Source: Oscillospiraceae bacterium
GTDB taxonomy: Bacteria > Bacillota > Clostridia > Oscillospirales > Oscillospiraceae
DNA: 64,000 nucleotides
Assembly (NCBI GenBank): GCA_902778115.1
Contig: CACYWG010000007.1
Span: forward strand, 350-64,349
Direction: 5' to 3'
The notes beneath the pieces were generated by a model that was not told the DNA's origin, did not search any database, and saw only the letters and a program-made list of their open reading frames with translations. Made by a program: the position numbers and the translations under genes. Positions 20,913-63,720 of the stretch are shown here, one piece after another. How positions within the stretch are numbered: the stretch's first letter is position 1; the number at the start of each line of letters is the position of its first letter.

Positions 20913-20944
20913 ATTCCGAATTCCGAACTCCGAATTCCGAATTC
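20913..20944. repeat. 7-bp-period array (ATTCCGA type) at the M14 peptidase stop codon
   Basis: Units ATTCCGA, ATTCCGA, ACTCCGA, ATTCCGA then ATT, ending directly at the stop codon (20945-20947) of the minus-strand M14 gene. The same four-unit layout, with the third unit variant, occurs at 26991, 54322 and 63692. Confidence 0.85.
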
Positions 20945-22222
20945 TCAGGTGACGAGCGCCGCCAGGGTCAGGATGCCGAGGTTTTCCCGGTAAATCGCGT
21001 CAAAATCGGACAGCGGCAGGGGATTGACGCCGCGGCCGACCTCGATCGTATAGCCCGGGCGGTCATAGTCCTGCAGAAACCAGTCCTTGTAGCCTGCAAA
21101 GCCCGACTCAAAGGGCACATCCGCCACCTCGTAGCCGCTCACCGCGCCGAAGAGCTCCGCGATCCGCCGCGCGCCGGGCGGTTCGATATCGAGAAACTGC
21201 CAGTAGATCACCCTCCCCTGGCTGTGATAGGCCAGCACCAGATCCGGCGAGAGGCGCTGCGTATAATCGTACATGGCGCGGCTTTCCGGCGCCGTCAGCG
21301 GGGCAGGGCCCACATAGTCCGCCGGCGCCGGGCCGCGCACGCCCTGGGCGAACTTGATCTCCCGCGCCTGTTCCCAGCCGGCCGGGTACTGCAGGTTCGG
21401 GTCGATGCCGCGGATATTGGCCTTCCAGCCCGAGGGGAAGGGGACGCGCGGGTAAGCCGCGGCGATGCGCCGCGCGCCCTCGTAGTATTCGCCGCGCTGC
21501 AGCTCCCCGGTGACCAGGTCGATCCCGTCGGGATTGACCGCCGGGATCAGTGTCAGCGCCGCATAGTCCAGGATCTCTGCCGCCGCATAGCCCGCCAGCA
21601 TCTCTCCGGCGGCGAAGGCCGCGGCCAGGTCTTCGGCGAATTTCAGCAGCAGCGGTGTCGTGATCCACTCATTGGCGTGATGCGAGGCGTTATACAGCAC
21701 TCGGTTCTCCCCGCTGCCGAGGCGCAGGGACCAGAGCGGCTTGCCCATGACGCTTTTGCCGATCTCTCCGACGCTGACAAAGGGGTAGCGGGCGGCAATG
21801 CCGCGCACGCAGTAGGCCGTCAGCGCGCTGCTCCAGTCGATCGTCGTGGGCACCACGGGAAAAGGCAGCGGCACCACCAGCTCGCTGCCGACGGCGAGGT
21901 TTTCCGGCACGGTCCCGGGATTTGCCAGAAGGATGGCCTCCTCGCTGCTGCCATAGCGCTGCGCGATGCTCCAGACCGTGTCGCCCCGGCGCACGCGGAA
22001 GACCAGATAACCCGTATACCAGGGCAGCAGCTGCCGGTGGGTCTGCGGCCCGGCGATCCCGTCGGCCGCGAGGCCGCGGTCGGCCTGAAAGCGCCGGAGC
22101 GCTTCGCGGGTGAGACCGCCGAAAATGCCGTCGGTCGTCAGCTCCCCATAGCCCGCGCGATTGAGCGCCAGCTGCAGCAGCTGCACCGCCGGCCCGGTGC
22201 TTCCTATTCGCAAAACTCTCAT
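20945..22222 (-). CDS. M14 zinc carboxypeptidase/endopeptidase with peptidoglycan-binding and LysM domains
   Basis: Likely gamma-D-glutamyl-meso-diaminopimelate peptidase acting on cell-wall or spore-cortex peptides. 425 residues in three parts. First is an N-terminal peptidoglycan-binding repeat (GSTGPAVQLLQLALNRAGYG to GPQTHRQLLPW). Second is a LysM domain (FRVRRGDTVWSIAQRYGSSE). Third is the M14 domain from about residue 140, with zinc ligands in ASHHANEW (HxxE) and LAYHSQG and the catalytic Glu in YTIEVGRG. ATG at 22222 has AGGAGGG 7 nt upstream. No signal peptide is visible, as in the Bacillus sporulation enzyme ENP1. Confidence 0.88.
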   Translation of the reverse strand: MRVLRIGSTGPAVQLLQLALNRAGYGELTTDGIFGGLTREALRRFQADRGLAADGIAGPQTHRQLLPWYTGYLVFRVRRGDTVWSIAQRYGSSEEAILLANPGTVPENLAVGSELVVPLPFPVVPTTIDWSSALTAYCVRGIAARYPFVSVGEIGKSVMGKPLWSLRLGSGENRVLYNASHHANEWITTPLLLKFAEDLAAAFAAGEMLAGYAAAEILDYAALTLIPAVNPDGIDLVTGELQRGEYYEGARRIAAAYPRVPFPSGWKANIRGIDPNLQYPAGWEQAREIKFAQGVRGPAPADYVGPAPLTAPESRAMYDYTQRLSPDLVLAYHSQGRVIYWQFLDIEPPGARRIAELFGAVSGYEVADVPFESGFAGYKDWFLQDYDRPGYTIEVGRGVNPLPLSDFDAIYRENLGILTLAALVT

Positions 22223-22303
22223 TTCTCGCCCTCCTTCGGCCACAGTATATGCGCCGAAAAGAGGAAAAAGAACGGGGTTTCCCCCCAGTATAAAAACTTT
22301 TGG

Positions 22304-22331
22304 TTGACTTTCTTAAAATAAGACTTAGAAT
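22304..22331 (+). promoter_or_regulatory. Candidate mgtC promoter
   Basis: TTGACT (22304-22309), 16 nt, TAGAAT (22326-22331); the gene starts at 22360 after AAAGGAGG. Confidence 0.5.
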
Positions 22332-22359
22332 GGGTAAAAGGGCCAAAGGAGGTTTGATC

Positions 22360-23085
22360 ATGACTCTCGGGAACTATCTGAACAGTCAATTTACGATATT
22401 GCAAACGCTGGAATTCTTCTTCCGCGTCCTGCTGGCCGGCGTTTTCGGCGCGGCCATCGGCTTCGAGCGCACTCGCCGTTTCAAGGAAGCCGGCATCCGC
22501 ACGCATGTGATCGTCTGCACGGCCGCTGCGCTGATGATGCTCGTCTCCAAATACGGTTTTGCCGATCTGAGCACTGCGGACAGCTTTTTCAGCGGCACCC
22601 GCGGCGCCGATCCCGCGCGGATCGCCGCGCAGGTCGTCAGCGGCATCAGCTTTCTGGGTGCGGGCGTCATCTTCAAAAACGGCAGCACCGTCAAGGGCCT
22701 GACCACGGCGGCCGGCATCTGGGCCACGGCCGGCATCGGCCTCGCCGTCGGCGCGGGCATGTACTGGCTCGGCCTCTTCACGACGCTGCTGATCGCCGTC
22801 ACCCAGATCGCCATGCACCGCTTCACCTTTGGCGCGGACGCTTACAACACCTGCAAGCTGCGCCTGAAGGTGCAGGACGACGGCAATTTTCAGCCTCACC
22901 TGCAGGATCGGCTCCAGCTGTGGAAAGCGAAGGCGGTCAACGTGCGCATGGCGCGAGGCGACAACGGCATCGTCAGCTACGAGCTCACGCTGCGCACGCA
23001 GCATGACATCACGGCCGAGGATCTGCTGCTCTTCTCCCGCGAACACAGCGAGATCCTGGAGATCAGCAACTCGCTGGTCGACTGA
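22360..23085 (+). CDS. MgtC/SapB family membrane protein
   Basis: 241 residues. The MgtC domain has four or five transmembrane segments with the family motifs FRVLLAGVFGAAIGFERTRR, KEAGIRTHVIVCTAAALMML, RIAAQVVSGISFLGAGVIFK and VKGLTTAAGIWATAGIGLAV. A cytoplasmic C-terminal ACT-like domain follows (about residues 170-241). The family is linked to Mg2+ homeostasis and modulation of transporters or ATP synthase; the exact role here is not inferable. ATG at 22360 follows AAAGGAGG. A bidirectional terminator follows. Confidence 0.92.
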   Translation: MTLGNYLNSQFTILQTLEFFFRVLLAGVFGAAIGFERTRRFKEAGIRTHVIVCTAAALMMLVSKYGFADLSTADSFFSGTRGADPARIAAQVVSGISFLGAGVIFKNGSTVKGLTTAAGIWATAGIGLAVGAGMYWLGLFTTLLIAVTQIAMHRFTFGADAYNTCKLRLKVQDDGNFQPHLQDRLQLWKAKAVNVRMARGDNGIVSYELTLRTQHDITAEDLLLFSREHSEILEISNSLVD

Positions 23086-23098
23086 CGGCCCATCCGAT

Positions 23099-23137
23099 AA
23101 AAATACCGGGAACCCGACGGGTTCCCGGTATTTTTTT
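23099..23137. terminator. Bidirectional terminator between mgtC and M32 peptidase
   Basis: Stem AAATACCGGGAACCC / GGGTTCCCGGTATTT with a 3-nt loop and T7 run; convergent genes on both sides. Confidence 0.92.
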
Positions 23138-23146
23138 GTCTGTTTT

Positions 23147-24655
23147 TCACTTCAGCTCATACAGGGCCGTGAACTTCTGCTCCAGATAGTCCAGATAGTA
23201 GTTCACGTTCAGGCTCTCGCCGCTGATCGCGCGGATCCATTCGTCCGGCGTCGTCAGCGAGGCGATCGAGAACACGTGCTTGGTCAGCCAGTCGCGGATC
23301 TTCGTCAGCTCGCCCACGCGCACGGCGGCAAAGACGTCAAAGTCCTTTTCCATCCTGCGAAGGATCTGCACGCCGTAGGCGTTGCCCAGCGCATAGGAGG
23401 GGAAGTAGCCGTAGGACCAGCCGGACCAGTGCACGTCCTGCAGGCAGCCCTGCGTGTCGTCCGGCACGTCGATGCCCAGATACTCCTTATATTTCGCGTT
23501 CCAGAGTGTCGGGATCTCGTCCACGGTGATCTCGCCGTTGACGAAGGCCTTCTCCAGCTCGTAGCGGATCAGGATGTGCAGGCAGTAGCTCAGCTCGTCG
23601 GCCTCGGTGCGGATCAGGCTCGGGCGGGCGACATTGACCGCCTCGAAAAGCTCGCGGTTCGTCACGTCGTCGAAAATGCCGCCGGAGAGCTTCCGGATCT
23701 GCGGCGCGGCAAAGTCGATGAAGGCCTCGCTGCGGCCGATCAGGTTCTCGTAGAAGCGGGAGATCGTTTCGTGCATGGCGCTGGTCATGTTGTTGGCGCA
23801 GTGATTGTCGTGCAGCTCCTGGGGCTCGTTCTGCATAAAAAGCGCGTGGCCGCCCTCGTGCAGGGTGGTGAAGACGTTGGAGATGAAGCTGTCCTCATGA
23901 TAATGCGTCGTCACGCGCACGTCATGATTGCCGAAATTCGTGGTGAAGGGATGCTCGGTGGTCATCAGCACCAGCGCGCTTTGGCGCAGGCCCTCCTGCT
24001 CCAGCAGCCAGCGGCTCATGGCCTCCTGGGCGGGGATGGGCACCGGGCGTGACATGAAGTCCTCGCGGATAGGCTTGCCCTCGGTGACGATGCGGCCCAG
24101 CAGCGGGACGATGCGCGCCTTGAGCGCGGCAAAGAAGGCGTCAAGCTGTTCGATGCTGCCGCCCTCCTCATAGTCGTCCAGGCAGGTATCGTAATAGCTT
24201 CCCTTTTTCTCGTCGCGCAGGTCGATCGAAATGCGGTTATAGCGGATCAGGTCGGCCAGCGCGTCGCGGAACAGCGAGAAGTCGTTGGCCTTTTTGGCGC
24301 TCAGCCAGGCACCGTAAGCCTTGTTGGAGGCCACGTCCATCTCATAGGAGAGCTCGGCAGAGATATTCTTCGCTCTTGCGTAGCCCTTGTAAAGGTGCTC
24401 CACGGCCTTTTTCTGCACCGGCGTGAGGCCTTCGCTGTCCGCGTGCAGCTCGCAGATCAGCTTTTCATAGCGCTTGTCGTGGGTCATTTTGTAGATCTGC
24501 TTGCCGAGCACGGCCATGTCCTCGCCGGCAGGGCCGATGCCCTCGGCCGGAGCGCAGCACTCCATGTCAAAGCTCAGCTTGCCGATGCTGCGGTAATAGG
24601 CCTCGATCTCGTCCAGGCGCGCAAAGAGTTTTTTCAGCTTCTGTTGATTGCTCAT
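23147..24655 (-). CDS. M32 family carboxypeptidase (Taq-type)
   Basis: Cytosolic zinc metallocarboxypeptidase removing C-terminal residues from peptides. 502 residues. Active-site HExxH appears in TLHEGGHALF, with the third ligand region in SAMHETISRFYENLIGRS. Other M32 blocks are DVRVTTHYHEDSF and HWSGWSYGYFPSYALGNAYG. ATG at 24655 has AAGGAGA upstream. Repeat element A1 lies directly upstream. Confidence 0.95.
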   Translation of the reverse strand: MSNQQKLKKLFARLDEIEAYYRSIGKLSFDMECCAPAEGIGPAGEDMAVLGKQIYKMTHDKRYEKLICELHADSEGLTPVQKKAVEHLYKGYARAKNISAELSYEMDVASNKAYGAWLSAKKANDFSLFRDALADLIRYNRISIDLRDEKKGSYYDTCLDDYEEGGSIEQLDAFFAALKARIVPLLGRIVTEGKPIREDFMSRPVPIPAQEAMSRWLLEQEGLRQSALVLMTTEHPFTTNFGNHDVRVTTHYHEDSFISNVFTTLHEGGHALFMQNEPQELHDNHCANNMTSAMHETISRFYENLIGRSEAFIDFAAPQIRKLSGGIFDDVTNRELFEAVNVARPSLIRTEADELSYCLHILIRYELEKAFVNGEITVDEIPTLWNAKYKEYLGIDVPDDTQGCLQDVHWSGWSYGYFPSYALGNAYGVQILRRMEKDFDVFAAVRVGELTKIRDWLTKHVFSIASLTTPDEWIRAISGESLNVNYYLDYLEQKFTALYELK

Positions 24656-24678
24656 GGCGGTCTCCTTTTCACCTATTA

Positions 24679-26990: not shown

Positions 26991-27018
26991 ATTCCGAATT
27001 CCGAACTCCGAATTCCGA
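26991..27018. repeat. 7-bp-period array (ATTCCGA type) at the ABC exporter stop codon
   Basis: ATTCCGA, ATTCCGA, ACTCCGA, ATTCCGA, reaching within 1 bp of the stop codon at 27020-27022. It lies between the exporter stop and the GNAT ribosome-binding region. Confidence 0.85.
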
Positions 27019-27019
27019 A

Positions 27020-28753
27020 TTATCCCAGGCTCTGTGCCCGACAGAGCGCGGCGTAAACGCCGCCCTTCGCGACCAGCTCCTCATGGCTGCCGCGCTCGAC
27101 GATGTGCTCGCCCTCCACGACGGCGATCTCGTCGGCGTGGCGCACCGTGGACAGGCGGTGGGCGACGATCACGGTCGTGCGCCCGACGCTCAGCTCCTCG
27201 AGCGCGGCCTGGATGCGCTGCTCGGTCACGGTGTCAAGCGCGGAGGTCGCCTCGTCGAGGATCAGGATTTTCGGGTTTTTCAAAAAGACGCGGGCGATGG
27301 AAATGCGCTGCTTCTGCCCGCCGGAGAGCATCACGCCGCGCTCACCCACATAGCTGTCATAGCCCTGGGGCAGCGCCATGATCTCGTCGTGGATCTCGGC
27401 GCGTTTGGCGGCCTCGACGATCTCCTCGTCGGTCGCCTCCGGGCGGCCGTAGCGGATATTCTCGCGGATCGTGTCGGCAAAGAGGAAGACGTCCTGCTGC
27501 AGGATGCCGATATTGCGCCGCAGACTCGACTGCGTCACGCTGCGCACGTCCCTGCCGTCCACCAGCACCGCGCCGTCCGATACCTCGTAAAAGCGGGGCA
27601 GCAGCTGGCAGAGCGTGGTCTTGCCGCCGCCGGACGGTCCGACGAGGGCCAGCGTTTTGCCCGGCTCCAGCTTCAGGCTGATGTGGCTGAGCACCGGGAT
27701 GCCGTTGGCATAGGCGAAGCTGACGTCGCGGTATTCGATCTCGCCGCGCACATCGGACAGGGTCTTCGCGTCCGGCGCGTCCTGGATGTCCGCCTCGGTG
27801 CGCATGATCTCCAGAAAGCGCGTAAAGCCCGCCGTGCCCTGCATATACTGCTCGGCAAACTGCGCGAGCTTGCGCACCGGGGTGACGAAGGTGGAGACAT
27901 AGAGCGTGAAGGTGACGAGATCCACCGCGTCCATACGCCCGGCCATGATCAGCAGGCCGCCCACCGTGATGACCAGCACCTGCATGATGCCGGTGGTGAA
28001 CTCCATCCCGCTCATAAAGAGGCCCATGGTCTTGTAGTATTCGACCTTCGCGCCCTTGAACATGTCGTTGGCGCGGTCGAATTTGCGGCCCTCCTGCTCC
28101 TCGTTGGCGAAGGCCTTGGCCACGCGCACGCCGGAGATGCTGCTCTCGATGGCGGCGGTGATCTCGGCGGTCTTTCGCTTGACCTCAATGTTGGCGCGCT
28201 TCATGCGCAGCCGCTGGCTGAGCGTGAACCACAGGCAGACCGGCAGCGCGATCGTCAGCACCAGCGCCAGCTCCCAGCGCAGGATGAACATCACGATCAG
28301 CGCGCCGATGATGGTCAGCGAGCAGATGATCAAGTTCTCCGGGCCGTGGTGGCTCAGCTCCGTGATATCGAACAGCTCGCTCGTGATGCGGCTCATCAGC
28401 ACGCCCGTGCGATTCTGGTCGTAAAAGCGGAAGGAGAGCTTCTGCATATGTTCAAAGAGGTCGCGCCGCATCTCCGCCTCCACCAGCACGCCCATGCGGT
28501 GGCCGAGCACGGTGATGACGTAGTACAGCAGCGCCTTGGCCAGATACGCCAGCGCCATCACGCCCATCACCAGGAAAAATACGGTATAGAGCTTCTGCGG
28601 CAGGTAGCTGCGCATCGCGCTGCGCGACACATAGGGGAACACCAGGTCGATCACCGCCACCAGCAGCGCGCAGATCATGTCGATCGTGAACAGCTTTTTC
28701 TGCCGCGCGATGTAGCGGATGAAGATTTTCAGCGGCTTTTCGTTGTAATTCAT
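27020..28753 (-). CDS. ABC exporter, fused membrane and ATPase domains (MsbA/MDR type)
   Basis: 577-residue half-transporter for export of lipids, drugs or peptides. Six transmembrane helices lie within residues 1-310. The nucleotide-binding domain follows: Walker [13 protein letters not shown]-loop region [12 protein letters not shown], signature [12 protein letters not shown], Walker [13 protein letters not shown], and the H-loop IVAHRLSTV. It works as a homodimer unless a partner exists elsewhere. Its ATG overlaps the rnhA stop (ATGA), so the two are coupled. The substrate is unknown. Confidence 0.94.
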
Positions 28754-35060: not shown

Positions 35061-35130
35061 AATTTGGAATGCGGAATTCGGAGTTCGGAATGACTTGATC
35101 ATCTCATTCCGAATTTATCATTCCGAATTC
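35061..35130. repeat. Two opposed 7-bp-period arrays between remB and recF
   Basis: Left array: AATTTGG, AATGCGG, AATTCGG, AGTTCGG, AATGACT (35061-35095). Right array, opposite polarity: ATTCCGA, ATTTATC, ATTCCGA, then ATTC up to the recF stop (35106-35130). The two halves form an imperfect inverted repeat about a short centre (TGATCATCTC). Confidence 0.75.
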
Positions 35131-41640: not shown

Positions 41641-42120
41641 ATGGACGCGATCGTCGCAGTCTATGCCGACTGGGGCATCGGCGACGGCGGCACCCAGCCC
41701 GTGGTGCTCAAGGCCGACCGCGCCCACTTCCGCGAGCTGACGAAGGGCGCGGCGGTGATCGTCGGCCGCCGGACGCTGGGGGATTTTCCCGGCGGGAAGC
41801 CGCTCAAGGGCAGAGACAACCTGGTCGTCACCCGGCAGGATATCGAAATCCCCGGCGCGCGCGTCGTGCACTCCACCGAGGAGGCGCTGGCCGCGGCTGC
41901 GGAATATGAGCGCTGCCTGGTCATCGGCGGAGCCAGCATCTATCGGCAGTTCTTTCCCCACATAAACCGTGTTTTTATTACAAAAATTGACTTGACTCCC
42001 CACTCGGACAGTTTTTTTCCCAATCTCGACGAGGATCCCGCCTGGGTCTGCACGGAGAGCGGCCCCTGGCTGGAGGAGGACGGCCTGCGCTATCAGTTCT
42101 GCACCTACGAGAGAGTTTAG
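41641..42120 (+). CDS. folA: Dihydrofolate reductase
   Basis: NADPH-dependent enzyme regenerating tetrahydrofolate after ThyA. 159 residues. The N-terminal MDAIVAVYADWGIGDGGTQP corresponds to the Met20-loop region. The substrate-binding segment is near LKADRAHFRELTKGAAVIVG, and GRRTL corresponds to the usual GRKTx/GRxTW. LVIGGASIYRQFFP is the NADPH motif. ATG at 41641 is chosen, 2 bp after the thyA stop; a GTG at 41635 overlapping thyA is possible. The stop codon begins a 7-bp-period array. Confidence 0.95.
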   Translation: MDAIVAVYADWGIGDGGTQPVVLKADRAHFRELTKGAAVIVGRRTLGDFPGGKPLKGRDNLVVTRQDIEIPGARVVHSTEEALAAAAEYERCLVIGGASIYRQFFPHINRVFITKIDLTPHSDSFFPNLDEDPAWVCTESGPWLEEDGLRYQFCTYERV

Positions 42121-42148
42121 TGCTTAGTTCCCAGTGCTTAGTGCTTAG
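42118..42148 (+). repeat. 7-bp-period array (TGCTTAG type) starting at the folA stop codon
   Basis: TAG (stop) followed by TGCTTAG, TTCCCAG, TGCTTAG, TGCTTAG. The array is immediately followed by the terminator at 42149. Confidence 0.85.
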
Positions 42149-42179
42149 AAAAGTCCGGGCGGTTTTCCGCCCGGACTTT
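42149..42179 (+). terminator. Intrinsic terminator after folA
   Basis: Stem AAAGTCCGGGCGG / CCGCCCGGACTTT with TTTT loop, followed by TGTATTTTT. Confidence 0.88.
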
Positions 42180-42212
42180 GTATTTTTGCCCTTTCTTTCA
42201 TTCTGCTAAGCA

Positions 42213-43223
42213 CTATGCACTACGCACCAACTCGGTTCCCGTATAATAGTGCGCGAGGATCTCGGTATAGTCCGCGCCCTGCTCGGCCATGACCTTGGCC
42301 CCGTACTGGCTCATGCCTACCCCGTGTCCGAAGCCGGTCACGGTGAAGACGAAGAGACCGTCTGACAGTGTCAGCTCAAAGGCGGTGGAGCGCAGCGAAA
42401 ACAGCCGCCGCAGCTCGGTGCCGCTGAAGGACACGCCGCCGAGCAGCGCCTCCGCCACCCGTCCGCTCGCGTCCCGCCGGATCTCGCCGATCCAGCCGCC
42501 GAGCGGCCCGGAAAAATCTGCCTCCGGCCGGAGCGACAGCAGCGTATCCCGGAAGTCGGTGGGCCAGCAGCTCACCGTGCTGACGAAATTGGGTACGTCC
42601 TCCGCTGTCTCCGGGCTGGACACGCTGACGAGATACGGGCGCGGGTTCCAGACGGCGCCGCAGTCCTCGGTGGCGCCGGCGGAGGAGGAATGGAAGGCGG
42701 CGAACACGGGCGCGCTGCCGTAGCAGAGGATCTGCCCGGCCGTCGCCTCAACGGCGGCGCGGACGCGCTGCGCGTTGGTCTCATAATCGTCCCCCCAGCG
42801 TTTGCGCTGCGCCTCCTCACTCAGCCAGGCCTGGCAGCAGCCGGGATCGGCGCAGACGGCCGCTTCGCCGTGCTTGTGCGCCGAGGCGCCGCTGCAGGTG
42901 AAGCTCCTGGCCGCGACGGCCTGCGCCTTCAGCGCCTCTTCGGGGAAGGAGGCGGGCATCTCCGCGGCCACCACGCCGCAGAGGTAATCCTCCAGCGGCA
43001 GCTCCAGCGTCTCCCCGCCGGACAGCAGCCGGATGGTCTCCGGCAGAGACGGGGATGATGCGGCGGGAGAAGGCGAGGGCTGAGGAGCCGGAGCACAGGG
43101 TACGGCGGGCAGAGGCGCCGCGGCAGCCGATGGGATCGCGCCGGAAACGGCGCGCGGCGCGGGCAGCGGCAGAAACAGAGACAGCAGGATCGCCAGCAGG
43201 GACAGCAAAATCGTTTTCTTCAT
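42213..43223 (-). CDS. spoIID: Stage II sporulation protein D (lytic transglycosylase)
   Basis: Membrane-anchored peptidoglycan lytic transglycosylase that drives engulfment in sporulation. 336 residues. The signal-anchor (MKKTILLSLLAILLSLFLPL) is followed by a Pro/Ala-rich linker. The SpoIID domain has LEDYLCGVVAAEMPASFPEE, ALKAQAVAARSFT, VFAAFHSSSAGATEDCGAVW and GFGHGVGMSQYGAKVMAEQG. The His/Cys segment CADPGCCQAWLS matches the zinc-binding region of SpoIID. A sigma-E promoter is expected but not assigned. Its last codons overlap a 7-bp-period repeat (42206-42226). Confidence 0.94.
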   Translation of the reverse strand: MKKTILLSLLAILLSLFLPLPAPRAVSGAIPSAAAAPLPAVPCAPAPQPSPSPAASSPSLPETIRLLSGGETLELPLEDYLCGVVAAEMPASFPEEALKAQAVAARSFTCSGASAHKHGEAAVCADPGCCQAWLSEEAQRKRWGDDYETNAQRVRAAVEATAGQILCYGSAPVFAAFHSSSAGATEDCGAVWNPRPYLVSVSSPETAEDVPNFVSTVSCWPTDFRDTLLSLRPEADFSGPLGGWIGEIRRDASGRVAEALLGGVSFSGTELRRLFSLRSTAFELTLSDGLFVFTVTGFGHGVGMSQYGAKVMAEQGADYTEILAHYYTGTELVRSA

Positions 43224-47885: not shown

Positions 47886-47912
47886 TAATGAAGAATGAAA
47901 AATGAAGAATGA
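47886..47912. repeat. 7-bp-period array (AATGAAG type) upstream of nupO
   Basis: AATGAAG, AATGAAA, AATGAAG, AATGAAG on the plus strand. A reverse-complement remnant (ATCATTCTTCAT, about 47941-47952) lies about 30 bp away, with a small CGCG-rich hairpin between. Unlike most arrays here it is not at a stop codon. Confidence 0.7.
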
Positions 47913-47961
47913 AGCATGGCGCGCTTTTCGCGTTTCTTTGATCATTCTTCATGTAGCAAGT

Positions 47962-48072: not shown

Positions 48073-49341
48073 TCAGGCGTCGATATTGGTGATGCCGTCG
48101 ATGTCGATGTCGAAGTAAGGAGCGGAGCGGAACTCGGACTCGTGGAAGAAGCCGTCGGAGATGACGTTGGTCTCGGGCTGGAAGTCGCCCATGTCGTCAA
48201 CGTCGGCCAGGTACTCGGTCAGGGTCTCGCCGTTCACGGTGAAGTTGGCGGTGTCGAAGACCTTGAGGGTGCCGGCTTCCAGAGCAGCCTGAACCTCGGC
48301 CAGCTTCTCGGCGGTGCCGGGGGCGGCAGCCTGCTCGTTGATCTCGGTCAGCTTCACGGAGCCGGTGGCGATGGTGCCGGTCCAGTCAGCGGGGATGGCC
48401 TCGCCGTTGGCAACGCAGGTCATGGCGAACTCCATGTAGGGAGCCCAGTCGATGCGGGAAGCGACGATGAAGGTGTTGGGGCAGGCGTCAGCGGCAGAGC
48501 CGTTGTAGAACACGAAGGGGATGTTGTTGGACTCGCACTCGGTGGGAGCGCCCATGGAGTCGGCATGCTCGGAAATGAGGACGCAGCCGTTGTTGATGAG
48601 CTTGGTGGCGCCTTCCTTCTCGAGGGTCGGGTCATACCAGGAGTTGGTGAAGGTGACTTCCATGGTGGCGCTGGGGCAGGCATAGCGGACGCCGAGGAAG
48701 AAGCTGGTGTAGCCGGACTTCACTTCGGCATAGGGGAACGCGCCGATGTAGCCGACCTTGGCCTGGTCAGCGGTGATGGTGCCGTCCTCGATCATCTGGT
48801 TGAGCTTCAGGCCGGCAGCGACACCGCCCAGGAAGCGGCCTTCATAGATGGAGGCAAAGCCGTTGTGGTAGTTGGCCAGGCCCTCGGTGTGGGCCTTGGT
48901 GCCGGTGGCATGGCAGAACTGGACCTCGGGGAATTCCTTGGCGGCCTGGATCAGGAAGGGCTCATGGCCGAAGGAGTCGGCAAAGATGAAGTTGCAGCCT
49001 TCGTCGACGAGCTCGGCGGCGGCGTCGTAGCACTCCTGGCCTTCGGGGATACCGGTCTTGAGCAGGTACTCAACACCCAGCTTCTCGCAGGCTTCCTTGG
49101 CGGCGTTGATGAAGTTCAGGTCGTAGGTGGAGTTCTCGTCGTGCAGGAAGATGAAGCCGGCCTTGACGGTGACGGCGTTCTCGGCGGGAGCTTCGGCAGG
49201 AGCTTCGGCAGGAGCTTCGGCGGGAGCCTCAGCAGGAGCGTTGTTCTCAGCAGGCGCATTGTTCTCGGCGGGCTTCTCACCGCAGGCGGCGAGGGCAAAC
49301 ACCATCACGAGGGCAAGCAGCAGAGCAATGATCTTTTTCAT
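48073..49341 (-). CDS. nupN: BMP-family nucleoside-binding lipoprotein (NupN/PnrA-like)
   Basis: Extracellular substrate-binding protein of the purine nucleoside importer. 422 residues. Signal peptide with lipobox LAAC (VFALAACGEK), then a repetitive APAE linker (about residues 24-58, ENNAPAENNAPAEAPAEAPA), then the BMP domain from VKAGFIFLHDENSTYDLNFI. Pocket-type segments are FADSFGHEPFLIQAAKEFPE and FASIYEGRFLGGVAAGLKLN. Start at 49341. Expression is controlled by the guanine riboswitch and terminator upstream, giving nucleoside uptake when guanine is scarce. Confidence 0.94.
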   Translation of the reverse strand: MKKIIALLLALVMVFALAACGEKPAENNAPAENNAPAEAPAEAPAEAPAEAPAENAVTVKAGFIFLHDENSTYDLNFINAAKEACEKLGVEYLLKTGIPEGQECYDAAAELVDEGCNFIFADSFGHEPFLIQAAKEFPEVQFCHATGTKAHTEGLANYHNGFASIYEGRFLGGVAAGLKLNQMIEDGTITADQAKVGYIGAFPYAEVKSGYTSFFLGVRYACPSATMEVTFTNSWYDPTLEKEGATKLINNGCVLISEHADSMGAPTECESNNIPFVFYNGSAADACPNTFIVASRIDWAPYMEFAMTCVANGEAIPADWTGTIATGSVKLTEINEQAAAPGTAEKLAEVQAALEAGTLKVFDTANFTVNGETLTEYLADVDDMGDFQPETNVISDGFFHESEFRSAPYFDIDIDGITNIDA

Positions 49342-49447: not shown

Positions 49448-49506
49448 GGAACAAAGGAAAACAGGAGCACCGACGGGGGCAGAAAAGGCCAAACCCGCCA
49501 GCGCTG

Positions 49507-49578
49507 TTTTCGATAGTCCGGTCATTTACGGCGTCCGGGTAGAAACTTCAAAACCATATTATTTGCTTATATCGAAAA
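49507..49578 (-). ncRNA. Guanine-type purine riboswitch aptamer
   Basis: On the minus strand P1 pairs TTTTCGATA with TATCGAAAA. The conserved core is present in order: ATATGG in L2, AGTTTCTACC in J2/3, CCGTAAA in L3 and GACTAT in J3/1. The C of GACTAT (position 74 equivalent) indicates guanine/hypoxanthine rather than adenine recognition. Ligand binding should favour the downstream terminator and switch off nucleoside uptake. A 2'-deoxyguanosine variant is less likely because the core bases are canonical. Confidence 0.92.
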
Positions 49579-49599
49579 ACGCTGTTCAATTATGGTAGT

Positions 49600-50801: not shown

Positions 50802-50840
50802 TCTACTAAGAACTAAGAACTAAGCACGAAGCACTGAAAA
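50802..50840. repeat. 7-bp-period array (AGAACTA type) at the dnaE stop codon
   Basis: TCTACTA, AGAACTA, AGAACTA, AGCACGA, AGCACTG, AAAA then CTA, where CTA (50841-50843) is the dnaE stop. On the coding strand TAG recurs at +21, +28 and +35 from the stop, i.e. in all three frames. Confidence 0.85.
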
Positions 50841-54321: not shown

Positions 54322-54351
54322 AATTCGGAATTCGGAGTTCGGAATTCGGAA
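54322..54351. repeat. 7-bp-period array (AATTCGG type) at the whiA stop codon
   Basis: AATTCGG, AATTCGG, AGTTCGG, AATTCGG, AA, ending at the whiA stop codon (54352-54354). It lies between whiA and dnaE. Confidence 0.85.
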
Positions 54352-55254
54352 TTATTCCCCGCGCGCAGCGAGGCTCAGGATCTTTTTCATGCGGTGGCTG
54401 AGGCAGCTCTTGCTGACGGGCGGCATGCTCAGCTGCGCCAGATCGGCAAGGCTTGCCTCGGGGTTGGCGATGCGCAGCAGCGCCGTATCCTTGAGCGGCT
54501 CCGGCAGCGCGTCCAGCCCGTAGCTGCGCACGATCAGGCGGATCGCGTCGAGCTGCTCCTGTGCGGCCGCGACCACCTTGTCGGCGTTGGCCGAGTCGCA
54601 GTTGACGCGGCGGGTGATGGTGTTGCGCATATCCTTTTCCACCTTCGCGGTCTGCACGCTCATCGAGGCGTTCATCGCGCCGACGGCGGTCAGAAAGTCC
54701 GCGATCGCGTCAGCCCGCTTGAAATACAGCAGGGCGTTGCCGCTGCGCATCGCCTCGCGCGGTTCAAAGCCCATATCCAATAGAAGGCTCATCGTCTCGC
54801 GGCTGACGCTGCGGTGCGGGGTCGACAGCTCCAGATGAAAGCCCTTTTCCGGGTCGGTGGTGCTGCCGCCGGCCAGAAAGGCGCCGCGGATGAAGGCCGT
54901 GCGCTCCTCATCCTCCTCCAGCACGCCGAAATTGACGTGGTGGGAGAGGGTGCTCTCCGGCTCCAGCCCGAAGGCGGCGAAGATCGTGCGGAGCTTGTCC
55001 GGCGCGGTGACGGCAAAGCGCAGCTTGCCCCCGGCGTTTTCGGCCGGGAGCTCGTCGAATTCCAGACCGAAGGCGCGGAAAAACAGCCGCGGCAGCAGCG
55101 CCGCGAAATCCGGCTGCGCGGTCACGAGGCGGATCTCCCGGGCGGAAAAGCTGTTGCCGTAGAGCAAAATGCCGTAGCATTCGGCGGCGGCGATATTCTT
55201 TTTTTGCGGCCGCAGGCGGCACAGTTCCGCCTTGGCTTCGGAGGAAAACGACAT
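54352..55254 (-). CDS. whiA: Sporulation/division regulator WhiA
   Basis: DNA-binding protein with an N-terminal LAGLIDADG-like homing-endonuclease fold and a C-terminal HTH. 300 residues. The start MSFSSEAKAELCRL and the segments AFIRGAFLAGGSTTDPEKGFHL (shown in part) and RRVNCDSANADKVVAAAQEQ are typical. HTH region: EASLADLAQLSMPPVSKSCL followed by SHRMKKI. In Bacillus it affects chromosome segregation and division. It normally sits after rapZ and yvcK; yvcK is absent here. Confidence 0.96.
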   Translation of the reverse strand: MSFSSEAKAELCRLRPQKKNIAAAECYGILLYGNSFSAREIRLVTAQPDFAALLPRLFFRAFGLEFDELPAENAGGKLRFAVTAPDKLRTIFAAFGLEPESTLSHHVNFGVLEEDEERTAFIRGAFLAGGSTTDPEKGFHLELSTPHRSVSRETMSLLLDMGFEPREAMRSGNALLYFKRADAIADFLTAVGAMNASMSVQTAKVEKDMRNTITRRVNCDSANADKVVAAAQEQLDAIRLIVRSYGLDALPEPLKDTALLRIANPEASLADLAQLSMPPVSKSCLSHRMKKILSLAARGE

Positions 55255-58424: not shown

Positions 58425-59752
58425 TCGGTTTCACTTGACAAATGCTCCATCAGGTCATTGCGCGCCTCGTCCTCGCCCACCGTGCTGCGGTAAAGACCGA
58501 AGCGGTGGCTGTCCATGGGCGAATCAAACGAGTAGACCGTGAAAGTCCAGTGCTGCTGCGACAGATGCTCGGCATAGGCGTCGAGCGCGATCTCATAGGC
58601 CGTCCGGCCGCCGAAGGCCTCCAGCGGCGTTTCATAATCCAGGATCGTGGGCTCGTCCCCATAGAGGTGCAGGTAGAATTTGGGCGTATCCCAGGCACCG
58701 TATTTCTCGGCGCTGTCTGAAAAGCGCGCCGGGTCGGCGGCGGCCTCGACGGCGGTCGTCAGAGCGATCGCGGAGAGCATGTGCACGGCGTGGCCGTACT
58801 CGCCGTCCAGATCGTGCCCGAGCACGACCTGCGGGCGGAAGCGGCGGATCTGTTCGACCTGGAAATCAACGAAGACCTCCTCACCGTAGTAGTAGCGGGC
58901 GTCGGCCAGCGTGTTCATCACCCAGTCCCGCAGACCGGTGGTCACCGGGTAGTGGTGAAGTCCGGCGGTCCAGAGGCCGTTGAGCAGCTCGTGGCAGCGG
59001 AAGCGTTCCGTGCCGATGTAGGGCGAGGTCATGTAGGCGACCTGCACGTTCAGGCCGCGGGACTCATAAGCGGGGATCACGCCGCCGAAGAAGATGAACT
59101 CGTCGTCGGCATGGGCGGAGAAAAGCAGGATGTCCGCCTGCTCATAGGGCGGCTCCCAGCGCTGCACCCAGTCGGGCAGGATCCCGGTGCCGAATGCGAA
59201 AAGATCGCAGAGCGCCACCGGCTCGCCGCCGAGCCGCAGCGTGATTTCCTGCGCAGGCGACGGCAGCTCGACGTACTCGTGCATGTAGCCCTGCGCGCCG
59301 CATTCGATCGCGCCGTCCGGCGTCTCAAGGGTCCAGGGCTGCGGATGGTCATTCCAGACCAGGTACAGTCCGGCGATCGGCTGCTCGGCGTGAAGGACGA
59401 GCGTATAGCCGCCGGGCAGATCCGCATAAGTCATGAAATCCCCGTCCAGGAGCCTGGGCTCCCAATCGGAGGGCGCCAGCGTCAGCTGGAGCTGCTCGGC
59501 CGGCCAGTCCGGCGCGGGCGTCGGCTCCGGGGTAGGCTCCGGCGTCGGTTCCGGGGTGACTTCGGGTGTGGGCTCCGGCGTCGGCACCGGCGTGGATTCC
59601 GGCTCAGACGCTGCGGTCGGCGCGGGGGTGACCGCGGCACCCGGCGCAGGAGGCCCAAAGGGGAGAAGATTCCGCTGCTGCAGCATCAAACCCGCGGCAG
59701 AAAGCAGCATGAGGATGATCACAACGATGAGAAAACGGCGAACGTATTTCAT
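58418..59752 (-). CDS. Secreted/anchored PIG-L family deacetylase
   Basis: Predicted zinc-dependent N-acetyl-hexosamine deacetylase outside the membrane. 444 residues. N-terminal signal-anchor (FLIVVIILMLLSAAGLML), then a stalk of EPTPEPTP repeats (about residues 40-82). A beta-rich domain (about 85-205) precedes the PIG-L domain, with the metal motif FSAHADDEFIFFGG and the HxxH element GHDLDGEYGHAVHML. ATG at 59752 follows AAGGAA. The substrate is unknown; a cell-surface glycan is a reasonable guess. Confidence 0.87.
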   Translation of the reverse strand: MKYVRRFLIVVIILMLLSAAGLMLQQRNLLPFGPPAPGAAVTPAPTAASEPESTPVPTPEPTPEVTPEPTPEPTPEPTPAPDWPAEQLQLTLAPSDWEPRLLDGDFMTYADLPGGYTLVLHAEQPIAGLYLVWNDHPQPWTLETPDGAIECGAQGYMHEYVELPSPAQEITLRLGGEPVALCDLFAFGTGILPDWVQRWEPPYEQADILLFSAHADDEFIFFGGVIPAYESRGLNVQVAYMTSPYIGTERFRCHELLNGLWTAGLHHYPVTTGLRDWVMNTLADARYYYGEEVFVDFQVEQIRRFRPQVVLGHDLDGEYGHAVHMLSAIALTTAVEAAADPARFSDSAEKYGAWDTPKFYLHLYGDEPTILDYETPLEAFGGRTAYEIALDAYAEHLSQQHWTFTVYSFDSPMDSHRFGLYRSTVGEDEARNDLMEHLSSETEG

Positions 59753-60620: not shown

Positions 60621-60712
60621 GATGAGTCTCCTTTGCCTGATGTTTTCCGAAAGCTGTTAAAAATATTTTATAACAATCTTTCCGACAGGTCAAGAAAAAA
60701 GCCGACAGAAAC

Positions 60713-60751
60713 AAAAGAAGCAGCCGCCCCGATGGGGTGACTGCTTCTTTT
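60713..60751 (-). terminator. Terminator-like hairpin, second copy
   Basis: Arms GAAGCAGCCGCCCC and GGGGTGACTGCTTC, T-run on the minus strand; near-duplicate of 61051-61085. Confidence 0.7.
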
Positions 60752-60890
60752 GGCTGATCTGCATACTGAAGATGCAGCAAATGTAAGGTTTCGGGAAGGA
60801 AGATATTGTGAAAGAACCCTACGCCCAGGAGGGGTGTCTTTCACGTACAATAACCCCGCCGCGCAGATAAGTTTGCGAAGCAAACTTGCT

Positions 60891-60932
60891 CCAGGAAAAA
60901 AGCCAGCTCCTTCGAGCTGGCTTTTTTCCTGG
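60891..60932 (-). terminator. Terminator-like hairpin after the tRNA-Thr fragment
   Basis: CCAGGAAAAAAGCCAGCTC / GAGCTGGCTTTTTTCCTGG with CTTC loop; symmetric. Confidence 0.75.
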
Positions 60933-60958
60933 AGCTGATACCCAGATTCGAACTGGGG
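60930..60958 (-). pseudogene. tRNA-Thr 3'-end fragment
   Basis: 29 bp identical to 61086-61114, the CCA end, acceptor 3' strand and T-arm of the intact tRNA-Thr. The rest of the tRNA is replaced by unrelated CGAGCG-rich sequence. It is followed by its own terminator-like hairpin. Confidence 0.85.
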
Positions 60959-61050
60959 CGCCGCCGCTCGCCATGCGAGCACGCTGCGCCGCAAGATCCG
61001 CTCGCTGCGCTCGCTCAAACAGTCCCCAGTTCGAATACTTACAGATATGA

Positions 61051-61085
61051 AAAAGACAGCCGCCCCAATGGGGTGACTGTCTTTC
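61051..61085 (-). terminator. Terminator of the tRNA-Asp/tRNA-Thr operon
   Basis: Minus strand AAAGACAGTCACCCC pairs with GGGGCGGCTGTCTTT, followed by TTCAT; starts right after the tRNA-Thr CCA end. Confidence 0.85.
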
Positions 61086-61161
<76 letters not shown>

Positions 61162-61193
61162 AAAATTCATGCCCCTTACAGAAGGGGCATGAG

Positions 61194-61270
61194 TGGCGAC
61201 CGAGAAGGGACTTGAACCCTCGACCTCCGGCGTGACAGGCCGGCGTTCTAACCGACTGAACCACTCGGCC
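61194..61270 (-). tRNA. tRNA-Asp (GTC anticodon)
   Basis: 77 nt on the minus strand. Acceptor GGCCGAG/CTCGGTC, anticodon stem GCCGG/CCGGC-type with loop CTGTCAC (anticodon GTC), T-arm GAGGG-TTCAAGT-CCCTT, discriminator G and encoded CCA. It lies 32 bp upstream of tRNA-Thr. Confidence 0.96.
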
Positions 61271-61281
61271 ACGGCTGGATT

Positions 61282-61310
61282 ATAATATCAAATCGTCCCG
61301 GCTTTGTCAA
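61282..61310 (-). promoter_or_regulatory. Promoter of the tRNA-Asp/tRNA-Thr operon
   Basis: Minus strand: consensus TTGACA (61305-61310), 17 nt, TATTAT (61282-61287). Confidence 0.8.
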
Positions 61311-61330
61311 CACTTTTTTGAAAGATTATC

Positions 61331-61368
61331 GAAAAACACCCGCTCCCATGCAGGGAACGGGTGTTTTT
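61331..61368. terminator. Terminator after the ABC-2 permease
   Basis: AAAAACACCCGTTCCC-type stem (minus strand) with complementary arm ending in GTGTTTTTC; symmetric T-runs. Confidence 0.85.
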
Positions 61369-61373
61369 CTGCA

Positions 61374-62969
61374 TCACAGCGCCCGGAATTTTGCTTCTCC
61401 GCGCGTCGTCAGCCAGCGCCACAGCAGCAGGCACAGCAGCAGCACCAGTCCCAGAAGTCCGCCGGCGATCGCAAGAGGCGGGACCGTGTCGCCGAAAATC
61501 AGGACGATCAGGAGCGGCAGCATCAGCAGCCCCATCGTGCCGAGCATCGTTACGGCCACAGCCATGCCCGTCTTGACGGCCTGGGTCTCGTTGATCCAGT
61601 CCAGATTCGGGTGGCGCAGGTTCTCAAAGAGCCCCAGCAGGCCGGTGAACAGCACGCAGGCGGAGGGCAGCAGGAAGAGCAGGAGCGCGTCAAGCGGCGC
61701 GGGCCGGAGCAGCACAACGAAGATCGCCGAGCAGATCAGCATCGGCGGCACCGCGATCAGCAGGTGCATGCGGAGCTTGGCGCGCAGGACCTGGCGCGGC
61801 GTGACCGGCAGGGACTGCAGCAGCCACAGGCTTTTGCCCTCGAGCGAGATGCTCGGCGCGGTGACCGTGCACATGGCCGCCATGAAGCAGAGCCCGAGCA
61901 GCAGAAGAAGCGGCAGAAATTCGCCGAGGCCGGGCATGGACAGCAGCGGCGCGAGGCTTTCGCGCTTGACGATCAGAAAGACCGCCGCGACCGGGGCCAT
62001 GATCACGCCCAGGGCGCTGTTGAGGATGTAGGAGGGGCAGGCGGCAAAGCGCTTGAACTCGCGGCGCAGCAGCGCGCGGTCCGGAGAGACGGCGTCCACC
62101 GCCTTTTCGACGTACTTCACCTTCGCAATGCTGCTCTTGGCGGTTGCGGTCTTCACGAAGCTGCGCTCCAGAGCCACCCAGATCAGCAGGAGCAGGGCGG
62201 CGGTGAGCAGCGCCAGCGCGCCGAGGGCAAGCAGATCGCCGCCGACGCAGGCCCGGCCGAGCCAGACCAGCGGCGCGACGCCGCCGATCGCATGGGCAAG
62301 CGGCGTGGGATCGGCCGCAAGATTGGTGATCCAGATGTTCATGCGCGAGATCGCGACGAAATACACCGCCAGGAAGGCCAGCGACAGCACGACCGTCATC
62401 AGCGACTGGTTGCGTACCCGGGCGGAGATCAGATGCAGCAGGAAGCCGAAGACCGAGGAGAGCGCCAGCGAGATCAGCGGCAGCAGCACGAAGAGCACGG
62501 CGAAGCTGCACAGAAAGCTGCCGAGGGAGAAGCCCGCCGCCTGGAACCAGGCGAGCATCGCCGGGCCGGCGACGATCAGGTCGAAGAGCAGATTCATCAC
62601 CAGCAGCAGGAGCATGCGGCTGAGCAGCACCTCGCCCGGCTTGACCGGCATCGACAGCAGCAGGTCGTTGTCCGTGGCCTCATAGAGCTGCGCTTTGGCA
62701 GAGAAAACGCTGCCGACGAACATCAGCGCAAAGGCCATCAGCGAAGCCAGCGCGAAATAGATCGCGCCGAGACCCGCGGCGGAAAAAGGCCCCGCCAGGG
62801 TATCGAAGGTCGTATACAGCATGAAGGCGAAGTAGCCGAAGGTGTAGAGCATCAGCACGGCAAAGCCGAGGATCTGCGCCTTCGAGCGCTTGCGCGTGCT
62901 GCGGTTGGCGCCGGTCAGCGAGCTTTTCAGCGACGCCAGACGGACGCGAAACAGAGCCTTAAGCCTCAT
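61374..62969 (-). CDS. ABC-2 type exporter permease
   Basis: 531 residues with about twelve hydrophobic segments, of the large clostridial putative ABC exporter class. A cytoplasmic N-terminus rich in Arg/Lys precedes TM1. Segments such as ATDNDLLLSMPVKPGEVLLS and GKSLWLLQSLPVTPRQVLRA are the repeated coupling-loop motifs seen in each half of this family. It overlaps the ATPase gene by 11 bp. The substrate is unknown. Confidence 0.85.
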   Translation of the reverse strand: MRLKALFRVRLASLKSSLTGANRSTRKRSKAQILGFAVLMLYTFGYFAFMLYTTFDTLAGPFSAAGLGAIYFALASLMAFALMFVGSVFSAKAQLYEATDNDLLLSMPVKPGEVLLSRMLLLLVMNLLFDLIVAGPAMLAWFQAAGFSLGSFLCSFAVLFVLLPLISLALSSVFGFLLHLISARVRNQSLMTVVLSLAFLAVYFVAISRMNIWITNLAADPTPLAHAIGGVAPLVWLGRACVGGDLLALGALALLTAALLLLIWVALERSFVKTATAKSSIAKVKYVEKAVDAVSPDRALLRREFKRFAACPSYILNSALGVIMAPVAAVFLIVKRESLAPLLSMPGLGEFLPLLLLLGLCFMAAMCTVTAPSISLEGKSLWLLQSLPVTPRQVLRAKLRMHLLIAVPPMLICSAIFVVLLRPAPLDALLLFLLPSACVLFTGLLGLFENLRHPNLDWINETQAVKTGMAVAVTMLGTMGLLMLPLLIVLIFGDTVPPLAIAGGLLGLVLLLCLLLWRWLTTRGEAKFRAL

Positions 62970-63675
62970 GGCTCTCCTCCAGTTCCAGGAACACGTCCTC
63001 CAGCGAGGCGTCGCCCTTGACCTCTTCCATCGTGCCGCTGGTGATCAGACGGCCTTCCTTGATGATGGCGACCTTGTCGCAGAGCTTTTCCGCCACCTCC
63101 AGCACATGCGTGGAGAAGAAGATCGCGCCGCCGCGGTCGCAGTGCTCGCGCATCATCTGCTTGAGCAGGTGGGCGGCCTTCGGGTCGAGGCCGACGAAGG
63201 GCTCATCCATCAAAATCAGCTTCGGCTCGTGCAGCCAGCCGGAGATCATCGCCAGCTTCTGCTTCATGCCGTGGGAGTAGGCGGAGATCGGCTGCGCCAG
63301 ATCGGCCGTCAGCTCGAAACTGTCGGCCAGGCGGCGGATGCGCTCGGCGCGCACGGCCTTCTCCACGCCGAAGATATCGGCGATGAAGTTCAGATACTGG
63401 ATGCCGGAGAGGAAGTTGTAGAGATCGGGATTGTCCGGCAGATAGGCCAGCACGCGCTTGGCCTCAAGCGGGTTTGCGCTCACGTCGATGCCGTTGATGC
63501 GGATCTCGCCGGCGTCGAAGGGCAGGATGCCCGCGCAGGATTTGAGCGTCGTGGTCTTGCCGGCGCCGTTGTGGCCGATGAAGCCGTAGATCTCGCCCGG
63601 GGCGATGTGCAGCGTCAGGTCGTCCACGGCCTTCTTGTCGCCGTAGGTTTTGGTCAGGTGGGTGATTTGGAGCAT
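62959..63675 (-). CDS. ABC exporter ATP-binding protein
   Basis: 238 residues. Walker A GHNGAGKTTTLKSCAG, signature YSHGMKQKLAMISGW, Walker B KLILMDEPFVGLDP and the H-loop FFSTHVLEVAEKL. It pairs with the overlapping permease gene. ATG at 63675 has AGGAGG 8 nt upstream; the longer frame runs through a repeat array and into the next gene, so it is rejected. Confidence 0.95.
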   Translation of the reverse strand: MLQITHLTKTYGDKKAVDDLTLHIAPGEIYGFIGHNGAGKTTTLKSCAGILPFDAGEIRINGIDVSANPLEAKRVLAYLPDNPDLYNFLSGIQYLNFIADIFGVEKAVRAERIRRLADSFELTADLAQPISAYSHGMKQKLAMISGWLHEPKLILMDEPFVGLDPKAAHLLKQMMREHCDRGGAIFFSTHVLEVAEKLCDKVAIIKEGRLITSGTMEEVKGDASLEDVFLELEESHEA

Positions 63676-63691
63676 GGATAAGCCTCCTTGA

Positions 63692-63720
63692 AATTCGGAA
63701 TTCGGACTTCGGAATTCGGA
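63692..63720. repeat. 7-bp-period array (AATTCGG type) upstream of the ABC ATPase
   Basis: AATTCGG, AATTCGG, ACTTCGG, AATTCGG, A. Same four-unit layout as at 20913, 26991 and 54322, but here about 30 bp from the nearest stop codon (63752). Confidence 0.8.

Follow-up and report, generated by a model that had tools for sequence, protein, structure and literature searches.

Among the heptamer repeats described in bacteria, the closest to the arrays reported here are those of Xanthomonas and Nostoc, GGGNATC and GGGGA(T/C)T, which have a unit of 7 nucleotides, consist mostly of four units, and are intergenic (PMC4692102). Most of them lie less than 50 bp from stop codons or overlap them in the sense direction, copies located before starts are antisense, and both length and sequence vary between close relatives; the relevant passages of that source report no general association with mobile elements (PMC4692102). 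The arrays considered here belong to the genome of an Oscillospiraceae bacterium from the Clostridia, and were noticed in a stretch of 64,000 nucleotides (hereafter, the window; G000:C7:350-64349), which is one contig stretch of a 2.16-Mb genome in 40 contigs. In this window, short arrays with a period of 7 nt abut or include the stop codons of unrelated genes, including recF, dnaN, folA, spoIID, dnaE, and whiA.

Two other systems are relevant for comparison. The TAACTGA repeats of Beggiatoaceae, Cyanobacteria, and Bacteroidetes, with two to six copies in the main genome, are mostly intergenic and hold stops in all frames; some of them overlap the upstream stop codon, and slippage at 7 nt has been discussed (PMC4679880). 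REPINs, built from repetitive extragenic palindromic (REP) sequences, are miniature hairpin pairs in gene gaps with many copies per genome, and GTAG-tagged REPs supply TAG stops to neighbouring genes (PMC3116915, PMC3733652); heptamer arms are not mentioned in the passages of these papers that describe them. On balance, the reading favoured here is that the clostridial arrays are copied, species-variable heptamer repeats at gene 3' ends, and that they probably represent the arms, single or in pairs, of a miniature hairpin element inserting at stops or next to them. They are likely neither a conserved stop signal nor a dedicated fail-safe stop. The heptanucleotide short tandemly repeated repetitive sequences (STRRs) of cyanobacteria and their small dispersed repeats (SDR), very small sequences often found within heptamer arrays, are likened to them by description only.

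Arrays were listed with Tandem Repeats Finder and a scan for lag-7 identity, both in the window and in a sample of 400 kb from seven other contigs of the same genome (464 kb altogether). Gene ends were taken from a simple codon-usage predictor and not from curated annotation, and some genes are missed. Both methods recovered the stop-codon-linked arrays that a preliminary description of the window had placed at nine genes, whose names all agree with Pfam. Eight of these sites stand (M14 peptidase, ABC exporter, recF, dnaN, folA, spoIID, dnaE, and whiA), and the ninth, mscL, has two units only, below the detection limit. Across the 464 kb, 21 intergenic period-7 arrays reach a score of at least 12, compared to at most one array each for periods 4-6, 8-11, and 13, two for period 12, and none for period 15; the 16 arrays of period 14 are mostly period-7 arrays re-read. 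The genome scan for 7-bp periodicity that had been proposed found 17 arrays with a score of at least 10 in the 241 gene gaps of the sample, whereas 100 shuffles that preserved dinucleotides gave 0.19 on average and 3 at most; 150 kb of E. coli K-12 contained no such array. Chance periodicity is ruled out by these shuffles and by the comparison with other periods. An assembly artefact is unlikely, because the arrays are internal to contigs and their layout recurs in separately assembled genomes of the same genus.

The 30 arrays listed in the source genome fall into several sequence families, as had been suggested, with the AATTCGG type as the larger group (16/30) and a TAG family in second place (11/30). 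Their typical length is four units (4.0-4.9 units in 19/30 arrays), like that given for the Xanthomonas and Nostoc repeats (PMC4692102). Unlike those repeats, described there as G-rich and with G-quadruplex potential, the units found here are A/T-rich or mixed and lack GGG: no such run is present in AATTCGG, TTTTTAG, TTCTTAG, TGCTTAG, or AATGAAG when read directly, so that a G-quadruplex was rejected. The motif AATTCGGANTTCGGAATTCGG has 15 exact matches in the genome, with overlapping registers counted, in which the variant unit is AGTTCGG in 11 cases, AATTCGG in three, and ACTTCGG in one (the copy at 63692). Thus, the fixed four-unit layout that had been proposed for this family holds, with AGTTCGG in 11/15 exact copies, and ACTTCGG, seen only once, does not count as a further common variant. 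With up to two mismatches, the motif has 50 genome matches, counted in the same way, and the reversed control has none.

The layout is also conserved beyond the window. The full form of 32 nt, with AGTTCGG as its third unit, is found at many unrelated genes of this genome and in other species, and a 21-nt form is present in 13 of the 61 same-genus genomes, the source genome included, and absent in all 38 genomes of other genera that were searched. The combination TTTTTAG-TTCTTAG-TTTTCAG, for its part, occurs at four places in G019, a sister species, and at one in the source genome, and was not found in the other 58 genomes searched. Some relatives hold unusually long or composite arrays, such as a 134-nt array of alternating AATTCGG/AATTTGG-like units in G063 (L164:2023-2156), a 75-nt array without any mismatch in G006 (L174:1974-2048), and three near-tandem composite copies in G030, each joining an AATTCGG array to a stretch with the repeat GTAGGGGC (L179:1952-2143).

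Regarding placement, the distance to the nearest stop was compared with a null, a check that the preliminary description had called for, and an enrichment was found. Four of the 30 arrays were dropped from this test, three because they lie outside gene gaps and one because its gap holds no annotated stop (by eye, it follows a TAG). Among the 26 testable arrays, 20 overlap a stop codon or lie within 4 nt of it, where 7.3 are expected (P = 1e-8); under a stricter null, in which arrays are kept away from starts, the expectation rises to 10.6 (P = 3.5e-6). The 400-kb sample alone gives 14/16 arrays within 4 nt of a stop, with 6.7 expected (P = 6e-6). A similar result is obtained independently of array detection, since across 226 gaps of at least 40 nt, elevated lag-7 identity is confined to the first 28 nt behind stops (0.313 and 0.311 vs other-lag means of 0.257 and 0.262, sd 0.012). 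At the dnaE loci of relatives (n = 49), 31 arrays could be tested, of which 16 are no more than 4 nt from a stop, with 5.1 expected (P = 7e-7).

The stop-flush arrays also share a common direction. In the source genome, 18/20 of them are sense, comprising 9/11 of the AATTCGG type and 9/9 of the TAG family, and the non-flush arrays near starts (window 63692, 47887, and 35066; L039 12367) are antisense. In G063, G006, G030, and G073, there are 57 AATTCGG-type arrays, and the 20 that are flush with a stop (11/21, 2/4, 6/28, and 1/4, respectively) are all sense. Stop proximity and direction are therefore those described for the Xanthomonas and Nostoc repeats (PMC4692102). The TAACTGA repeats share with the arrays their seven-base unit and mostly intergenic position, although they are reported to lie mostly just 5' of starts, in the forward direction and with one sequence (PMC4679880), whereas the arrays described here lie at stops, have many sequences, and are antisense when close to a start.

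Selection without any targeting would be a further way to obtain this distribution, with insertion anywhere and survival only just behind stops in compact gaps. This possibility is a real one, somewhat short of being the expected answer, and it is compatible with the favoured element while opposing stop-codon targeting. It is consistent with only 3/30 arrays being located inside predicted genes, with empty whiA-dnaE gaps as small as 1-18 nt in 12 of the 28 readable loci, and with the 20913 site in the sisters G019 and G023, where the sequence is promoter-like and a -35-like TTGACG starts 1 nt past the stop. However, the sample enrichment persists when only 40 nt (P = 4e-4) or 25 nt (P = 4e-3) behind the stop are taken as permissive, and enrichment at stops is also seen in long gaps, for example in L044 and L048.

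The two sister species provide a view of the turnover of the arrays. Over long matches, their DNA identity to the source genome is approximately 89-94% for G019 and 84-90% for G023, and orthologous stops were counted over the window, L042, and L049. The comparison of orthologous 3' ends, as had been proposed, disclosed differences in presence, length steps of 7 and 14 nt, and differences of family. Out of 66 orthologous stops shared with G019, arrays are found at six in both genomes, at four only in the source genome, at two only in G019, and at 54 in neither; both G019-only stops (recF and spoIID) hold array sequence below the detector limit in the source genome, and at recF the G019 array is an intact one of four units. 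For the 56 stops shared with G023, the corresponding numbers are none, eight, one (a weak two-unit hit), and 47. The 20913 site is empty in both sisters, the array at 47887 is absent in G019, and that behind dnaN is equal in length with other units in G019 and missing in G023.

Behind the same stop, the family itself may be exchanged. The AATTCGG arrays at 26991, at L049 5699, and at L042 18162 each correspond in G019 to an array of the TAG family, which at 26991 consists of TTTTTAG-type units; G019 also has the TTTTTAG family at folA, where G023 has about one unit. Steps of exactly one unit separate the two genomes at 63692 and at 50805, behind dnaE, where G019 is shorter and, in the latter case, has other units (the locus L052 has TTTTTAG units there), and G019 is two units longer at L049 12708. 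The whiA-dnaE gap holds an unrelated dispersed repeat in G019 and is a bare 18-nt gap in L075. The repeat that occupies the G019 gap (L051), an array site in the source genome, is larger and of the CCCTCAGTC...GGGAGCC type, and similar sequences are present in the whiA-dnaE gap of L052, L057, L058, and L082.

These exact differences of 7 and 14 nt fit local replication slippage, which, acting alone, would expand heptamers in place wherever 3' flanks vary freely, with a 7-nt unit suiting the polymerase. The uniformity of single arms (see below) points in the same direction, as does the single TCGGAAT-like unit of G023 at 26991, where the source genome has four; in addition, most genomes are reported to have heptamers as their most frequent class of long repeats, and an idea based on the polymerase footprint has been published (PMC4679880, PMC4692102). 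As a complete explanation slippage is unlikely, however, since it does not account for one 32-nt layout at many unrelated genes and in other species, for the common direction of 18/20 flush arrays, or for inverted paired arms around a shared core. The proposal that a defined element had been copied is thus supported by this layout at unrelated loci, its presence in 13/61 genomes, and the empty orthologous sites, while slippage, against which that proposal argued, would act in addition, with unit number shifting by exactly 7 or 14 nt between sisters.

The architecture of a putative element is seen best in relatives. Those represented by dnaE loci are mostly metagenome-assembled genomes (MAGs) of Oscillospiraceae, Ruminococcaceae, and other Clostridia, several of them labelled as ruminant gut. 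Their 60 arrays include 16 adjacent pairs, all of them inverted, with a spacing of 50-61 nt in 13, and both adjacent pairs among 33 arrays of the source genome are inverted as well. Between the paired arms there is mostly a conserved core of approximately 50-60 nt with two GC-rich hairpins (alignment A1, 15 cores). R1, a covariance model of this core, yields as many as 56 matches in a single genome of the genus, with some places matching on both strands. The 29 core places fetched with R1 have heptamer arms on both sides in 23 cases, on one side in five, and on none in one; leaving out L292, L235, L297, and L298, whose cores were already part of A1, both arms are present at 19/25. Accordingly, lag-7 identity flanking the R1 cores is 0.55 and 0.50, vs 0.28-0.32 at lags 3-6 and 8-13. 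Several families, namely GTGAAAA, GTGAATA, GTGAACA, AATGAAT, AAAGTGT, GTGTGGA, and AATTCGG, serve as arms around the same core.

Within 29 two-arm elements, the two arms are more alike (identity of 0.80) than arms of different elements (0.69; permutation P = 1e-4, with same-genome elements not separated), and each arm has an internal uniformity of 0.87. These values are as expected if both arms share their origin and then homogenise locally. As RNA, paired arms fold strongly (z from -4.2 to -10.9 in five elements), compared to the weak folding of solo arms (z from -2.6 to +0.5 in five solo arrays); in the window, the arm-core-arm unit between folA and spoIID has a z of -9.2, and the facing pair at recF folds as a hairpin with a z of -4.2. 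No Rfam family reaches its gathering threshold over the arrays or the core in the window, L039, L056, or L064. Several families per genome, their exchange between sisters, and the inverted arms around a hairpin core in relatives are differences from the Xanthomonas and Nostoc repeats as these are described (PMC4692102). R1 matches also occur in G039, G046, G087, and G059, which belong to other families of the order and have no RAYT-like match, possibly as part of a wider hairpin family.

Under the favoured reading, an element consisting of an arm, a two-hairpin core, and an inverted arm would spread by copying, as REPINs and miniature inverted-repeat transposable elements (MITEs) do. Its arms would lengthen and shorten through replication slippage of whole units, which would preserve uniformity within an arm even as the arm's sequence shifts from one family to another, and insertion of the element would be tolerated at the 3' edge of genes. 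Termination could then pass to stop-bearing arms, since with a unit of 7 nt a stop appears in every frame within three units. The solo arrays that are the usual form in the source genome would be single arms without a core; calling them arms is an extrapolation from relatives, since nearly all of them are solo.

The whiA gene illustrates how arrays may supply stops. Its 3' end was checked in 33 loci, with 28 readable C-termini, and five of these have a stop-bearing array at the end of the gene. In L056, L057, L064, and L082, the array supplies both the TGA and the three to five terminal residues, which extend the protein from about the point at which it ends in relatives, and in L054 the stop lies within the first array unit. 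In units of GTGAAAA, GTGAATA, GTGAACA, AATGAAG, and AATGAAT, stops are limited to the gene-facing strand, TTTTTAG-type units hold them on both strands, and AATTCGG, AGTTCGG, and GTGTGGA have no stop codon in any frame of either strand. Extra in-frame stops are consequently supplied by the TAG- and TGA-bearing families and not by these last three units.

The preliminary description suggested that the TAG family could act as a fail-safe stop, and a broader version would have the arrays kept by selection as such stops or as 3'-end signals. A role of this kind would agree with the stop on the gene-facing strand in most families, with the use of the array's TGA by whiA of relatives, and with the flush arrays at 4/20 TAG stops vs 13/206 (Fisher P = 0.05). 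It is nevertheless an improbable general explanation: AATTCGG and AGTTCGG, which make up the larger group, are stopless in every frame, like GTGTGGA, several of the genes concerned have no array in sister species, and of the 416 genes predicted in the 464 kb, only 20 have a flush array. What survives is a weaker form restricted to the stop-bearing families, among which TTTTTAG, GTGAAAA, and GTGAATA need no more than three units to stop a reading frame of any phase.

As for the enzyme that might move the element, a RAYT-like transposase is the candidate, so far by correlation only. If it were the engine, the core with its heptamer arms would be a REPIN moved by the RAYT-like protein, which is a doubtful proposition. 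The best NCBIfam match of this protein is REP_Tyr_transpos (NF047646), with 64.5 and 75 bits for two members, below the cut-off of 80, and its gene, fragmented in some genomes, is present in 34 of 61 same-genus genomes. At least four core matches are found in 19/34 carriers vs 0/27 non-carriers (P = 6e-7), a correlation that ignores kinship and counts both-strand matches twice. The hairpin-pair core, which also matches R1 on the other strand, its high copy number in relatives, and the presence of a RAYT-like gene are possible points of resemblance to the REPIN/RAYT systems as described (PMC3116915, PMC3733652). Unlike in those systems, the core is not located beside RAYT genes here, and no fixed GTAG tag at the hairpin foot is visible by eye in the core alignment. 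The RAYT-like protein was thus not accepted as a proven mover, the evidence being correlative and the RAYT loci holding another repeat. Copying by a reverse transcriptase was set aside, as there is no RVT_1 match in the source genome, G019, or G023. In loci L262-L291, 25 of 27 RAYT open reading frames (ORFs) have GTAGGGGC-type motifs within the coding sequence, mostly in both directions, with tracts that are variable by eye, such as RRGDPCGRP and RATARVAPT.

Several observations weigh against the favoured reading, including its RAYT-driven form. Ten RAYT carriers of the genus have no core match, while cores occur without RAYT in the same-genus G018, G028, and G074 (1-3 each) and in the other families (3-6 each in G039, G046, G087, and G059, and one in each of several others). 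No core is present in 30 RAYT loci, the 27 RAYT ORFs found in these loci have no array at a distance of up to 400 nt, and 25 of these ORFs enclose a different, GTAG-type repeat (GTAGGGGC). The presence of AATTCGG is not clearly linked to RAYT either (10/34 vs 3/27, P = 0.08). Regarding the element itself, the source genome has a single R1 core and almost exclusively solo arrays, the adjacent pairs of G063, G006, G030, and G073 (84 arrays) are inverted in three cases and direct in six, and neither a target-site duplication nor a clean element boundary can be seen by eye at the empty sites. On placement, the window alone is not significant (6/10 arrays at stops, P = 0.08), the sample P weakens to 0.004 if only the first 25 nt past the stop tolerate insertion, only 6/28 AATTCGG-type arrays of G030 are stop-flush, and all gene-end calls rest on a simple codon-usage predictor that misses genes.

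The arrays of the window and the RAYT-like ORF of the source genome are collected in Table 1. The window also holds period-12 tandem repeats at 49181-49239 and 59517-59603, which are probably coding repeats, and a purine riboswitch on the minus strand at 49494-49594 (Rfam RF00167).

Table 1. Heptamer arrays and associated features (window positions unless a contig is given)
Feature	Position	Strand	Basis	Remarks
Two TGCTTAG-family units directly 3' of mscL TAA, 5' of terminator hairpin	11215..11229	-	by eye	too short to test
AATTCGG array, four units + AATT, third unit AGTTCGG, sense; flush 3' of M14 peptidase TGA	20913..20944	-	repeat scan	
AATTCGG array, layout as at 20913, sense	26991..27021	-	repeat scan	AA = last two bases of ABC exporter TAA
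Antisense AATTCGG array facing decayed recF array, right arm	35061..35093	-	repeat scan	~10 nt 5' of next start
Decayed sense AATTCGG array directly 3' of recF TAG, left arm	~35104..35130	-	by eye	
TTTTTAG-family array, 2 nt past dnaN TAA	36455..36484	-	repeat scan	
TGCTTAG-family array, left arm	42117..42148	+	repeat scan	first TAG = folA stop
Terminator-like hairpin between facing folA and spoIID arrays	42149..42205	.	sequence reading	
TGCTTAG-family array, right arm	42206..42227	-	repeat scan	holds last codons + TAG of spoIID
AATGAAG-family array, antisense, 19 nt 5' of start	47887..47918	-	repeat scan	not at stop, 154 nt away
TTCTTAG/TGCTTAG array, by eye directly after dnaE TAG	50805..50840	-	repeat scan + by eye	scan start 6 nt past TAG, hence counted as not flush
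Antisense AATTCGG array filling gap from whiA TAA to dnaE start region	54322..54353	-	repeat scan	
Antisense array with single ACTTCGG-type unit, 16 nt 5' of ABC ATPase start	63692..63722	-	repeat scan	not at stop, 29 nt away
RAYT-like ORF, source genome	G000:C3:142216-142704 (L267:1498-1989)		NF047646, 64.5 bits, cut-off 80	

The preliminary description considered a stop-linked family in a clostridial genome to be notable. This applies to the host, as no earlier report of such arrays in Clostridia was found among the literature matches listed, which is weak evidence of absence; the kind of repeat itself is already on record, and the clostridial case extends it, because stop-linked heptamers are described in Xanthomonas and Nostoc in the passages cited above (PMC4692102). 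New here are the clostridial host, the units without G-quadruplex potential, the exchange of families at one site, and the arm-core-arm architecture. On a more speculative level, bacterial heptamer arrays might be arms that face inward and can stand in for one another, in one broad class of miniature stop-capping elements, including the heptamers of Xanthomonas and Nostoc and perhaps TAACTGA of Beggiatoaceae, with G-quadruplexes being incidental. Such a generalisation is more daring than probable. In it, the unit length would be seven because this number is no multiple of three and favours slippage, the sequence would be free to drift, and a stop in every frame within three units, whichever of the two flanking genes the arm is read from, would allow an element to land on the end of a gene and take the place of its stop.

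There is no accepted explanation for the repeated occurrence of heptamer arrays in unrelated bacteria. The placement and direction of the arrays described here are those of the G-rich repeats, but their units lack G runs, so that the placement needs a cause other than the G-quadruplex. The inverted arms, the family differences, and the protein ends encoded by arrays offer testable handles on the enzyme that moves the element and on the choice between stop targeting and tolerance. They also make it possible to ask whether repeat insertion is a route by which proteins evolve small C-terminal tails.

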